From Prevotellaceae bacterium (GTDB lineage: Bacteria; Bacteroidota; Bacteroidia; Bacteroidales; Paludibacteraceae), in assembly GCA_031271465.1 (NCBI GenBank), contig JAISVR010000014.1:1-64000 (forward strand): a stretch of DNA of 64,000 nucleotides. Direction: 5' to 3'. The position numbers and the translations under genes are program-made. How positions within the stretch are numbered: position 1 is the stretch's first letter; every line of letters begins with the position of its first letter. This document shows positions 19,476 through 32,844 of this stretch, piece after piece. The notes under the pieces were generated by a model. It searched no databases. It was given only the letters and a program-made list of their open reading frames with translations, and was not told where the DNA came from.

Positions 19476-20474
19476 ATGGATATTCTTAACGAAATGTTTG
19501 CTCGTGCCAAACAGAATTTACGACGCATTGTGTTGCCCGAAGGCACAGAAGAACGCACGATTAAAGCTGCCGATATTATTTTGGCAGAAGGTTTTGCAGA
19601 AATCATCCTCATTGGCTCAAAAGCTGAAATTGAGGCAAAAGCTGCCGAGTTTGGATTGAAAAATATCGGTAAAGCAACGATTATAGACCCTGCTACCAAC
19701 TCGTCGATGCCAAACTATGCCAACTTGCTTTTCGAACTGCGCAAAAGTAAGGGCATGACTATTGAAGATGCATCAAAATTGGCACAAAATCCTCTTTATC
19801 TTGCTTGTTTGCTTATTAAAAACGGTGATGCCGACGGCGAAGTTGCCGGTGCGATGAATGCTACGGGCAATGTGCTTCGTCCTGCATTCCAAATCGTGAA
19901 AACCTTGCCCGGAATCAATGTCGTTTCGGGTGCATTTCTGATGTTTACCCAAACGCCCGAATACGGCGAAAACGGATTGTTGATCTTTGCCGATTGTGCC
20001 GTACACCCAAATCCTACGGCTGCCGAATTGGCACAAATCGCCGTGTGTACCGGACAGACTGCGCGCAATATTGCCGGCTTCGAGCCAAAAATTGCCATGT
20101 TGAGTTTCTCTACCAAAGGTTCGGCTAAACATGAATTGGTAGACAAAGTGGTAGAGGCAACTAAACTTGCCAAAGAAATGGCTCCCGATATGCAGATAGA
20201 TGGTGAGCTTCAAGCCGATGCGGCTTTGGTTCCTTCGGTGGGACAAAGCAAAGCTCCGGGCAGTGCAATTGCCGGACAGGCAAATGTGCTTATTTTCCCC
20301 GACCTGCAAGCAGGAAACATCGGTTATAAACTTGTGCAGCGATTTGCCGGAGCCGAAGCAGTGGGTCCTATCCTGCAAGGGATGGCAGCACCTGTAAACG
20401 ATCTTTCGCGGGGCTGTTCGGTAGAAGATATTGTGAAACTTGTGGCTATTACTGCCAATCAGGCAATAAAATAA
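19476..20474 (+). CDS. pta: Phosphate acetyltransferase
   Basis: The ATG at 19476 (MDILNEMFARAKQNLRRIVLPEG) is chosen; an in-frame Met 16 codons earlier adds only unrelated leader residues. The 332-residue product is the short class of Pta with a single PTA/PTB domain (RIVLPEGTEERT, GEVAGAMNATGNVLRPAFQ, NVLIFPDLQAGNIGYKLVQRFAGAEAVGP). It interconverts acetyl-CoA and acetyl phosphate, and with ackA, 26 bp downstream, yields ATP and acetate. They form one operon. Confidence 0.95.
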   Translation: MDILNEMFARAKQNLRRIVLPEGTEERTIKAADIILAEGFAEIILIGSKAEIEAKAAEFGLKNIGKATIIDPATNSSMPNYANLLFELRKSKGMTIEDASKLAQNPLYLACLLIKNGDADGEVAGAMNATGNVLRPAFQIVKTLPGINVVSGAFLMFTQTPEYGENGLLIFADCAVHPNPTAAELAQIAVCTGQTARNIAGFEPKIAMLSFSTKGSAKHELVDKVVEATKLAKEMAPDMQIDGELQADAALVPSVGQSKAPGSAIAGQANVLIFPDLQAGNIGYKLVQRFAGAEAVGPILQGMAAPVNDLSRGCSVEDIVKLVAITANQAIK

Positions 20475-29938: not shown

Positions 29939-30901
29939 ATGATAAAGACAGGAATCATAGGTGGGGCAGGTTATACTGCCGGCGAATTGCTCCGCATTTT
30001 GCTCAACCATCCGGAAGTGGAAATCGCGTTTGTAAATAGCAACAGCAATGCGGGTAACAAAATTTCGTCTGTGCATGGTGGATTGATTGGTGAAACCGAT
30101 CTGGAATTTACCGACCAATTGCCGCTTACCGAAATTGATGTGCTTTTTTTCTGTACGGCACATGGCGATACGAAAAAATTTATCGAATCAAATAAGTTGC
30201 CCGCAAACTTGAAAATCATAGATTTATCGACCGATTATCGCAACGAAAACGATGGTTTTGTCTACGGTTTGCCCGAACTAAATAAATCGCGCATTGCAGC
30301 TGCACAAAAAATTGCCAACCCGGGTTGCTTTGCTACGGCAATTCAAGTGGCATTACTGCCTTTGGCAAATGCGGGTTTGCTAACTAACGAAGTACATATC
30401 AATGCCATTACAGGTTCTACCGGCGCGGGACAAAAACCAAGCGAAACTTCGCATTTCAGTTGGCGTAACGATAATATTTCGGTTTATAAAGCATTTGAGC
30501 ACCAGCATTTAACGGAGATTACGCAGAGTATTAAACAATTACAACCGAATTTCGATAAATCGATTAATTTTATTCCTGTACGAGGAAATTTTGCACGAGG
30601 TATTTTCGTTACTGCTTATACCGAATGCAATTTAAGTCTCGAAATGGCAACGAATCTGTATAACGATTTTTACAAAAATGCAGCATTTACCTTTGTTACT
30701 GAAAAAAATATCGACCTCAAACAAGTAATAAACACTAATAAAGCTATTGTGCACTTGGAAAAACACGGCAATAAATTATTCATCATTTCAATAATAGATA
30801 ATTTGTTGAAAGGTGCTTCGGGACAAGCAGTACAGAACATGAATATTATTTTCGGATTGAATGAATGTGCGGGTTTAAACTTAAAATCAATTGGCTTTTA
30901 G
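29939..30901 (+). CDS. argC: N-acetyl-gamma-glutamyl-phosphate reductase
   Basis: A 320-residue protein. NADP-binding GGAGYTAGE is at 8-16, and the active-site Cys is C130 in NPGCFATA. HINAITGSTGAGQKPSET and VRGNFARGIFVTAY are family segments, and the C-terminal KGASGQAVQNMNIIFG is the standard closing motif. It makes N-acetylglutamate semialdehyde in arginine synthesis. No other arg genes are adjacent, unlike many Bacteroidota where argC sits in a long cluster. Confidence 0.94.
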   Translation: MIKTGIIGGAGYTAGELLRILLNHPEVEIAFVNSNSNAGNKISSVHGGLIGETDLEFTDQLPLTEIDVLFFCTAHGDTKKFIESNKLPANLKIIDLSTDYRNENDGFVYGLPELNKSRIAAAQKIANPGCFATAIQVALLPLANAGLLTNEVHINAITGSTGAGQKPSETSHFSWRNDNISVYKAFEHQHLTEITQSIKQLQPNFDKSINFIPVRGNFARGIFVTAYTECNLSLEMATNLYNDFYKNAAFTFVTEKNIDLKQVINTNKAIVHLEKHGNKLFIISIIDNLLKGASGQAVQNMNIIFGLNECAGLNLKSIGF

Positions 30902-30920
30902 CCATCGAACCGTTAAAAAT

Positions 30921-30976
30921 ATGTTATAAAACATGTTTTTAACATTCTTTAACTCGAAAAATATGTTTTATAGCAT
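30921..30976. repeat. Pair of inverted AT-rich operator-like sites
   Basis: ATGTTATAAAACAT (30921-30934) and ATGTTTTATAGCAT (30963-30976) are reverse complements of each other with one mismatch, and each is itself nearly palindromic. The second overlaps the -33 region of the promoter at 30987-30994, a position expected for a repressor or activator site. Confidence 0.5.
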
Positions 30977-30986
30977 AAAAGTAGCT

Positions 30987-30994
30987 TATCTTTG
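30987..30994 (+). promoter_or_regulatory. -7 box of a candidate small RNA
   Basis: TATCTTTG on the plus strand, a perfect TAnnTTTG match; the next downstream annotated gene (recJ) is on the opposite strand, so this box serves no mRNA that can be seen. Confidence 0.6.
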
Positions 30995-30999
30995 TACTG

Positions 31000-31068
31000 T
31001 GTTTTTCATAGTATTAGATTTAAGGTAGCAAAACGGACAAGCAGGAGTGCTGTCCGTTTTGTTATTTT
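31000..31068 (+). ncRNA. Candidate stand-alone small RNA (about 65-70 nt)
   Basis: A promoter box (30987-30994) is followed by about 30 unstructured bases (TTTTTCATAGTATTAGATTT within them) and then a strong intrinsic terminator hairpin (31030-31060). The hairpin has stem AAAACGGAC / GTCCGTTTT, continued past an A bulge by AGCA / TGCT, around a GGAG tetraloop, then GTTATTTT. No ORF fits. The 5' segment looks like a leader I recall recurring in Bacteroidales genomes; that is memory, not a search. The region sits between argC (plus) and recJ (minus, ends 31096). Confidence 0.55.
31030..31068 (+). terminator. Intrinsic terminator of the candidate small RNA
   Basis: A 13 bp stem with one bulged A at 31039, GGAG loop at 31044-31047, and a T-rich tail. 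Because the arms are A/T at the ends it could also terminate recJ transcripts from the other strand. Confidence 0.7.
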
Positions 31069-31095
31069 AATGAAAATCGTTTATATCTATCGCCT

Positions 31096-32844
31096 CTATT
31101 TTTGAGTTTCCTCAACAGTATTTTCGCTCAATTTTATATCTCTTATCATCAATTGAATGGATGTGTTTCCATTAAAAGTATTTTCTTCGAGTGTATAACA
31201 AATATCGAGCGGATTAAGAGCTTTCAAATCGTTGTTAAACTCAAACATGCGGAAAGCTATACCATTCATTACATTTTTACAGCTGGCATCTACCAAATCC
31301 ATTTTGAGATGCTCGTGGTCTTTGCCAACGAGGCGCGAACTGCCGTAATCGAATACCTGCCGTGAGCAGAAAACGGGTTTCATATTGTCGGGTCCGAAAG
31401 GACTAAACTGCTTCAGTATGCGAAAAAATTTAGGCGTAATGTCACGGAAAAGAATTTCTACATCAATATCTATCTGAGGTTCCGTTTGGTCGGGTAGAAT
31501 GTTTGCGCGTACAAAATCATCGAACCTGCAACTGAATTCCTCTACATTTTCTTCCCTCAAAGTCAAGCCTGCCGCATACATGTGTCCTCCAAAATTTTCG
31601 AGCAAATCTTTACACGATTCGATAGCCTTATAAATATCGAAACCGGGTACCGAACGCGCCGAGCCGCTCACCATTCCATTAGAATGAGTGAGCACTACCG
31701 CAGGACGGTAACAATATTCCGCCAAACGAGAAGCCACAATACCAATAACACCTTTATGCCAATCGGGATTGTATATCACCACCGAATTGCGCCGAGCATG
31801 TTCTTCATCTTGTTCCAATTGAACAATGGCTTCGTCGGTAATCGATTTATCCAAATCTTTCCGAATTTGGTTGTGCTGGTCAATTTCTTCGCAGCGCTTA
31901 TGAGCGAAATTCAAATCGTTGGTTACGAGCAACTCTACCGCTTCGCGTGCCAACTGTATACGCCCCGAAGCATTGATACGAGGACCTATTTTGAACACAA
32001 TATCGCTAACGGTTATTTCTTTATCGGCAAGTCCGCAGATATCAATAATAGTTTTTAAGCCTAAACTTGGATTTTGATTAAGTTGTTTTAAGCCGTAAAA
32101 TGTCAAAATCCGGTTTTCACCGGTAATGGGCACAATATCTGCCGCAGTGCTTACCGCAACAAGATCGAGTAAGGGATAAAGCCGCTTGGGAATATCAAAA
32201 TCGTTGTACAACGCAAAAGCTTGCATAAACTTAAACCCCACACCACAACCGCAAAGGTGCTTGTAAGGATAATTACAATCGATTTGTTTAGGATTAAGCA
32301 CGGCTACTGCGGCAGGAAGTATGCTGTCGGGCGTGTGGTGGTCGCAAATAATAAAATCAACACCTCGTTTGCAGGCATAATCTATTTTTTCTACCGCCTT
32401 GATGCCGCAATCGAGAGCAATAATAAGCGAAAAGCCGTTTTCTACAGCATAGTCAATTCCGGTATGCGAAATACCATAACCCTCGGTATAACGGTCGGGC
32501 AGATAAAAATCAACCTCGGTGTAAAATTGTTTTAAAAACTTGAAGACCAACGAAACAGCCGTAGTGCCGTCGACATCGTAATCTCCATAAATTAAAATTT
32601 TTTCCTTATTCCTTAATGCTTCGTTGAGCCGCTCCACTGCTTTGTCCATATCTTTCATCAAGAAAGGGTCGTGCAGGTCGGACAACTGAGGACGAAAAAA
32701 TCGCTTAGCCTCATCGAAGGTCGTAATGCCCCTCTGTACAAGTAGTTGAGTTAGTATTTTGCTGATTCCTAATTCATTGGCTAATTTTTCTTTTTGTTCT
32801 TTTTCTTTTTCGGTTAAGGAATATACATTCCATTTGTTTACCAT
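31096..32844 (-). CDS. recJ: Single-stranded-DNA-specific exonuclease RecJ
   Basis: A 582-residue DHH-family nuclease. DYDVDG is at 88-93 and the CDHHTP motif near 166, with LNPKQIDCNYPYKHLCGCGVGFKF and the DHHA1 domain carrying GGHMYAAGLTL around residue 420. The C-terminal OB-fold (roughly 455-560) includes SRLVGKDHEHLKMDL. It degrades single-stranded DNA 5' to 3' in recombination and mismatch repair. A minus-strand -7 box TACCTTTG lies at 32888-32895. Confidence 0.95.
   Translation of the reverse strand: MVNKWNVYSLTEKEKEQKEKLANELGISKILTQLLVQRGITTFDEAKRFFRPQLSDLHDPFLMKDMDKAVERLNEALRNKEKILIYGDYDVDGTTAVSLVFKFLKQFYTEVDFYLPDRYTEGYGISHTGIDYAVENGFSLIIALDCGIKAVEKIDYACKRGVDFIICDHHTPDSILPAAVAVLNPKQIDCNYPYKHLCGCGVGFKFMQAFALYNDFDIPKRLYPLLDLVAVSTAADIVPITGENRILTFYGLKQLNQNPSLGLKTIIDICGLADKEITVSDIVFKIGPRINASGRIQLAREAVELLVTNDLNFAHKRCEEIDQHNQIRKDLDKSITDEAIVQLEQDEEHARRNSVVIYNPDWHKGVIGIVASRLAEYCYRPAVVLTHSNGMVSGSARSVPGFDIYKAIESCKDLLENFGGHMYAAGLTLREENVEEFSCRFDDFVRANILPDQTEPQIDIDVEILFRDITPKFFRILKQFSPFGPDNMKPVFCSRQVFDYGSSRLVGKDHEHLKMDLVDASCKNVMNGIAFRMFEFNNDLKALNPLDICYTLEENTFNGNTSIQLMIRDIKLSENTVEETQK

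Follow-up and report, generated by a model that had tools for sequence, protein, structure and literature searches.

Does the short interval between argC and the oppositely oriented recJ hold a small RNA gene of its own and, if so, to which family does the RNA belong, what does it pair with and what controls it? We addressed these questions within a 64,000-nucleotide stretch of DNA (hereafter the window). An initial annotation, made from the letters alone, had placed a free-standing unit of promoter and hairpin here, flanked by these two genes and lacking an ORF. The identities of both neighbours are borne out by their Pfam domains, and the ORF list contains none of at least 50 amino acids inside the unit. 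The same argC-fopS neighbourhood recurs in four relatives (G001, G002, G018 and G026). The genes and the parts of the unit itself are as follows.

29939-30901, plus strand: argC, the upstream neighbour (Pfam PF22698, PF01118)
30987-30994, plus strand: -7 promoter box TATCTTTG, read from the sequence (consensus TAnnTTTG) and kept in relatives
30999-31071, plus strand: FopS-family small RNA gene by homology (RF04319 model positions 1-71)
30999-31025, plus strand: single-stranded 5´ part carrying the R1' seed GUGUUUUUCAUAGUAUUAGAUUUAAGG, matched to the Rfam consensus
31022-31068, plus strand: terminator hairpin with a bulged A, a GGAG tetraloop and a U-rich end, from folding; its form is kept in relatives
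31096-32844, minus strand: recJ, the convergent downstream neighbour (Pfam PF01368, PF02272, PF17768)

The perfect -7 box of that annotation is thus present. Its placement of the unit's start at 30963 held less well: this position falls inside a conserved regulator site (30962-30977), and the unit reaches further upstream, with a second site at 30920-30935. DNA searches found conservation among relatives starting at 30960, 40 nt before the RNA. The TTTG expected at -33 is absent from the window's fopS promoter, where the -33 region coincides with the nearer of the two regulator sites. A sigma-70 promoter scan of the locus was set aside, as it is unsuited to this phylum.

By sequence comparison, the 30999-31071 RNA is a homologue of FopS that falls below the curated cut-off, and not a certified Rfam member. 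The match to RF04319 covers the full model at 49.9 bits (E 6e-7), under the Rfam gathering cut-off of 56, and the deficit arises because the hairpin sequence differs. The first 27 nt agree with the RF04319 consensus at all but one position, an A/G that is variable within the family; the 5´ end at 30999 is itself taken from the Rfam alignment. The 20-mer that the initial annotation suggested might recur in Bacteroidales genomes does so, and corresponds to the published R1' seed of FopS (RF04319; PMC11697453). The 2025 description of FopS, from B. thetaiotaomicron, counts 14 paralogues that base-pair at the start regions of SusC mRNAs to repress translation, an activity that the RRM protein RbpB antagonises (PMC11697453). 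The proposal of a free-standing gene from a dispersed Bacteroidales sRNA family is therefore supported, both by RF04319 homology and by the copies in relatives, but the family is one already described, of which the initial annotation was unaware, and two upstream boxes for the regulator Cur had also been missed. GibS (RF04182) has its first ~21 nt (R1) in common with the window RNA, but differs in its length of ~142-145 nt, its second seed R2 and its promoter motif PM2; the RF04182 model scores 37-38 bits here, its cut-off being 115, and the RNA ends at about 31071, so it is not a GibS by these measures. Other Rfam matches below cut-off, including SurA on the minus strand, were treated as chance.

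The predicted structure agrees with this assignment. The fold of the RNA (30998-31070) has an energy of -29.1 kcal/mol, compared with -10.9 for shuffled sequences (z = -7.3; equalled by 0/200 shuffles). No stable structure was found from 30999 to about 31021, as had been proposed for the 5´ segment, although a weak 4-bp hairpin appears there when the full length is folded. Directly 3´ of this segment stands the Rho-independent terminator hairpin, as in FopS (RF04319), with the bulge and GGAG tetraloop that the initial annotation had read from the letters. The initial proposal was to fall if this hairpin were not conserved in relatives, and it passes that test. Its form is kept in 137/138 copies, which among them contain 45 different inner stems, while seed columns are mostly 95-100% conserved across 137 distinct copies; the hairpin thus varies in sequence and not in form. 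A near-invariant seed beside a hairpin conserved only in form is the pattern predicted for a base-pairing RNA with a terminator. These hairpin counts come from folding each copy separately, which replaced alignment-based folding; RNAalifold on a plain MAFFT alignment was dropped since it paired the seed with the linker, hairpins of differing length being misaligned.

Two readings would dispense with a base-pairing RNA altogether. The hairpin could be a two-way terminator between convergent argC and recJ, or the end of the argC 3´ UTR, with no free small RNA produced. The convergent arrangement invites this explanation, as does the strong fold of the hairpin on the opposite strand. However, a terminator would not account for a -7 box of its own, the near-invariant 5´ seed or the conservation upstream of the promoter, nor for copies in many unrelated gene contexts, and the family is known to be transcribed in B. 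thetaiotaomicron (PMC11697453), leaving this explanation very improbable. We attach next to no weight to a tiny leaderless ORF of nine codons running from GTG at 30999 to TAG at 31026. The frame is open in the window copy, but its third codon positions show no more variation than the first two, most copies have AAGGTTAA in place of the TAG stop, and small ORFs were excluded by the FopS authors (PMC11697453).

The family is dispersed in the order. Copies of fopS were present in 40/61 sampled genomes, comprising 35/37 from Paludibacteraceae, the window's family, and 5/24 from the order's other families. The window was assigned to Paludibacteraceae because recJ finds its best matches in unclassified Bacteroidia and Paludibacteraceae, and because G036, a genome of the window's family, has its fopS copies at almost identical contig coordinates to those of the named Paludibacter sp. 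MAG_BO7 (reached through L029). A count of copies per genome, one of the checks that had been suggested, gave 6-10 in named Bacteroides and 13 in Parabacteroides faecis, compared with one in the window's own genome and two in genomes of the same genus. In an even sample of 297 genomes across the phylum, strong matches occurred only within the order, the remainder being marginal. Besides Bacteroidaceae, the family's range therefore takes in Paludibacteraceae and further families of the Bacteroidales. In five genomes (L141 in G035, L142 in G004, L145 in G021, L146 in G013 and L147 in G016) two to four copies lie clustered, 200-350 bp apart, which suggests local duplication. Among the weak hits to RF04319 or the seed pattern in the window's own genome, at least L002, L003, L006, L007/L018, L010, L012, L013, L019 and L022 were rejected as RNA copies; they read as gene starts on the opposite strand and may be antisense targets.

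We also noted the FopS seed in 48 IMG/VR viral contigs (L349-L396; for example L350, L359, L364 and L370). A -7 box precedes 22 of these copies. Many of the viral seeds have no promoter and lie 12-140 nt past an ORF stop, followed by a hairpin and T-run, resembling mimics derived from 3´ UTRs; in one contig (L352) the seed directly follows a tRNA-Arg. Terminase or primase genes support a viral origin for L353, L358 and L385, and L365 and L381 look incidental. One phage is mentioned in the FopS paper (PMC11697453).

What, then, might control this gene? Three elements lie upstream of the -7 box, none of them assigned to a strand.

30920-30935: far Cur (BT4338) box TATGTTATAAAACATG, one mismatch to TATGTTnTAnAACATA, ending 51 nt before the -7 box, centre at about -71.5
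30939-30952: TTAA-N6-TTAA, a direct repeat lying between the far and near boxes, its spacing shared by 19/43 near-box copies
30962-30977: near Cur (BT4338) box TATGTTTTATAGCATA, one mismatch, 9 nt before the -7 box, centre at about -29.5, over the -33 region

The palindrome TATGTTnTAnAACATA was published as the consensus site of Cur/BT4338, a regulator of the CRP type (PMC3878776, PMC6989115), and both boxes fit the pattern for Cur regulon promoters, wwwTATGTTnTAnAACATAwww, with one mismatch each. The 64-kb window contains exactly two sites with at most one mismatch, where 0.03 were expected; both lie just upstream of the RNA, 42 bp apart centre to centre, and 0/100 shuffles contain two. The association extends to the family. 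At up to 3 mismatches, 76/127 dereplicated fopS copies have a Cur box, whereas 300 permuted boxes averaged 5.1 (the largest count was 54, some permutations staying close to the real box), and at up to 2 mismatches the comparison is 64/127 with 0.6. Distances from the -7 box cluster at 7-11, 29, 40 and 50-51 nt. The nearest class, 7-11 nt, accounts for 43/127 copies, and the 40-nt distance predominates in named genomes, mostly Bacteroides. Ten copies, including those of the window, G002, G003 and G018, have both a near and a far box. In 49/127 no Cur box could be recognised at the positions usual for the others, which speaks against Cur control. Recurrence of the box at fixed distances in dozens of copies, including those of Bacteroides, makes Cur a candidate regulator of FopS.

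Several further observations bear on whether Cur itself would bind these boxes. A different regulator of similar specificity could occupy them, with Cur uninvolved: the consensus match is one of sequence, bile salts induce FopS in Bacteroides, and the adjacent TTAA-N6-TTAA suggests a second regulator. Two TTAA motifs 10 nt apart occur in 19/43 near-box fopS copies, compared with 1.2 in shuffles, most often with a start 62-63 or 47 nt from the -7 box; the repeat may be bound by a second regulator or act like an UP element. However, only one CRP-family protein was found in the genome, with cNMP-binding and HTH_Crp_2 domains that make it a candidate Cur, and its gene (L258, on contig C19) carries a weak box of its own, with three mismatches, 41 nt upstream of a -7 box; this agrees with a prediction that BT4338 regulates itself (PMC3878776). 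By eye, the same box also stands upstream of fusA2-like and pflB-like genes in relatives, which are known or predicted Cur targets, and upstream of gap in the window's own genome. We therefore consider a regulator other than Cur unlikely. In the window's own genome, two other loci, L200 (C11:28639) and L199 (C6:6209), have a Cur box at a distance of 8 and 13 nt, respectively, from a -7 box, and we read their genes as gap and pdxS; the near position is thus not limited to fopS.

Whether Cur would repress or activate fopS is a closer call. For the window's copy we lean, by a small measure, towards repression from the near box. Near boxes lie over the -33 region at variable spacing and in this resemble repressor sites. 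In B. thetaiotaomicron, FopS is ~3-fold lower on N-glycan than on glucose (PMC11697453), and Cur is silenced by sugars (PMC10294740), which together fit net repression by Cur. Furthermore, 140 Cur-bound genes with changed expression are repressed and 35 are activated (PMC6989115). The same RNA could instead be activated by Cur, the far box acting from about -71.5 and the near box replacing the -33 contact, such that FopS would be made in carbon shortage and would trim SusC synthesis when the cognate glycan is missing. Far boxes (29, 40 and 50-51 nt) are spaced by about one helical turn and the -33 element is kept at 30/33 far-box promoters, both as at activator sites. At near-box promoters the -33 element is missing in 18/35, which suggests dependence on a bound activator and not repression. 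Activation also has precedents in MasB (PMC10994844) and in fusA2 (PMC6989115), whose counterparts in relatives have boxes 32-33 nt from the -7 box. Set against these points are the repressor-like placement of the near box, the fall of FopS on N-glycan, where Cur should be more active, and the preponderance of repressed genes, and we judge activation possible but the less probable direction. The reported response of FopS to bile salts is left unexplained by Cur and counts against Cur control.

On the output side, the seed can base-pair with start regions that end in TATGAAAAA. The genome has only one SusC above the TIGR04056 cut-off, and its start region AACCTTTAAATTTAATTCTATGAAAGAAAAA pairs with the seed at a computed -22.3 kcal/mol, second among the 345 genes ranked, which cover about one fifth of the genome. 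None among 153 genes from unselected stretches equals this energy, and only 1/2000 control seeds that retained the anti-start part did as well on SusC as the real seed. From these computed pairings, SusC is a supported target of FopS, and other genes are only candidates, among them a phosphate acetyltransferase gene in the window (19476-20474; -19.7 kcal/mol). A general excess of targets, 15 genes at or below -18 kcal/mol against 4.5, was withdrawn, since the choice of many stretches had itself been guided by those hits. Among the 153 genes of unselected stretches the excess vanishes (3 vs 2.1); beyond SusC, these gene starts showed no more seed pairing than the anti-AUG part provides, and only the SusC result survives.

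Taken together, we consider it likely, on comparative sequence evidence, that the locus is a FopS-family RNA gene with a -7 promoter, Cur control through two boxes and a seed that blocks SusC translation. An RNA of ~70 nt would be transcribed from the Bacteroidota -7 promoter and ended by the hairpin, with the CRP-type carbon regulator Cur binding both boxes to control fopS. The exposed 5´ seed would pair with the start-codon regions of certain mRNAs, SusC being the best supported, and translation would presumably be blocked. The genome contains one RRM protein, of the RbpB type, which probably modulates FopS. With Cur repressing from the near box, FopS would be produced under an ample supply of preferred sugar, with Cur silent. 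More tentatively, and with somewhat less than even confidence, we propose that carbon catabolite control in Bacteroidales acts in part through a small RNA, FopS, whose function would correspond to that of Spot 42. In several families, Cur would bind directly to the promoters of fopS, turning off near-box copies and tuning far-box copies, and SusC translation would follow the same master regulator as PUL transcription. If so, glycan-uptake genes of major gut bacteria would be both transcribed and translated under the control of a single regulator.

The regulator of the FopS family was left open in the paper that described it, which does not name Cur, Crp or BT_4338 (PMC11697453). We found no paper treating FopS and BT4338 together in the searchable literature, which misses most subscription papers, and a 2025 regulatory-network paper does not mention FopS. 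Within that scope the link between Cur and FopS is new, but it may already be contained in a published table.

Comparison with known systems places the locus closest to FopS of B. thetaiotaomicron (RF04319). The two have in common the 5´ end GUGUUUUUCAU..., the R1' seed, a single-stranded 5´ part followed by a terminator, the -7 promoter box, a length of ~70 nt, dispersed copies and an RRM protein in the genome. They differ in copy number (12-15 compared with one in the window's genome), in the position of the window's copy outside Bacteroidaceae, and in the two Cur boxes, such boxes going unmentioned in the FopS paper (PMC11697453). The Cur (BT4338) regulon and its small RNA MasB are built on the same palindromic consensus, and MasB shows that Cur can control a small RNA (PMC6989115, PMC10994844); however, it is a different RNA with another target, and FopS is listed as a Cur target in none of the papers examined. 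Finally, Spot 42 and CyaR of enterobacteria depend on Hfq, and we claim no sequence relation between them and FopS, but the circuit proposed here for FopS works in a like manner: a small RNA regulated by a CRP-family protein base-pairs with mRNAs that encode uptake or outer-membrane proteins (PMC4098024).
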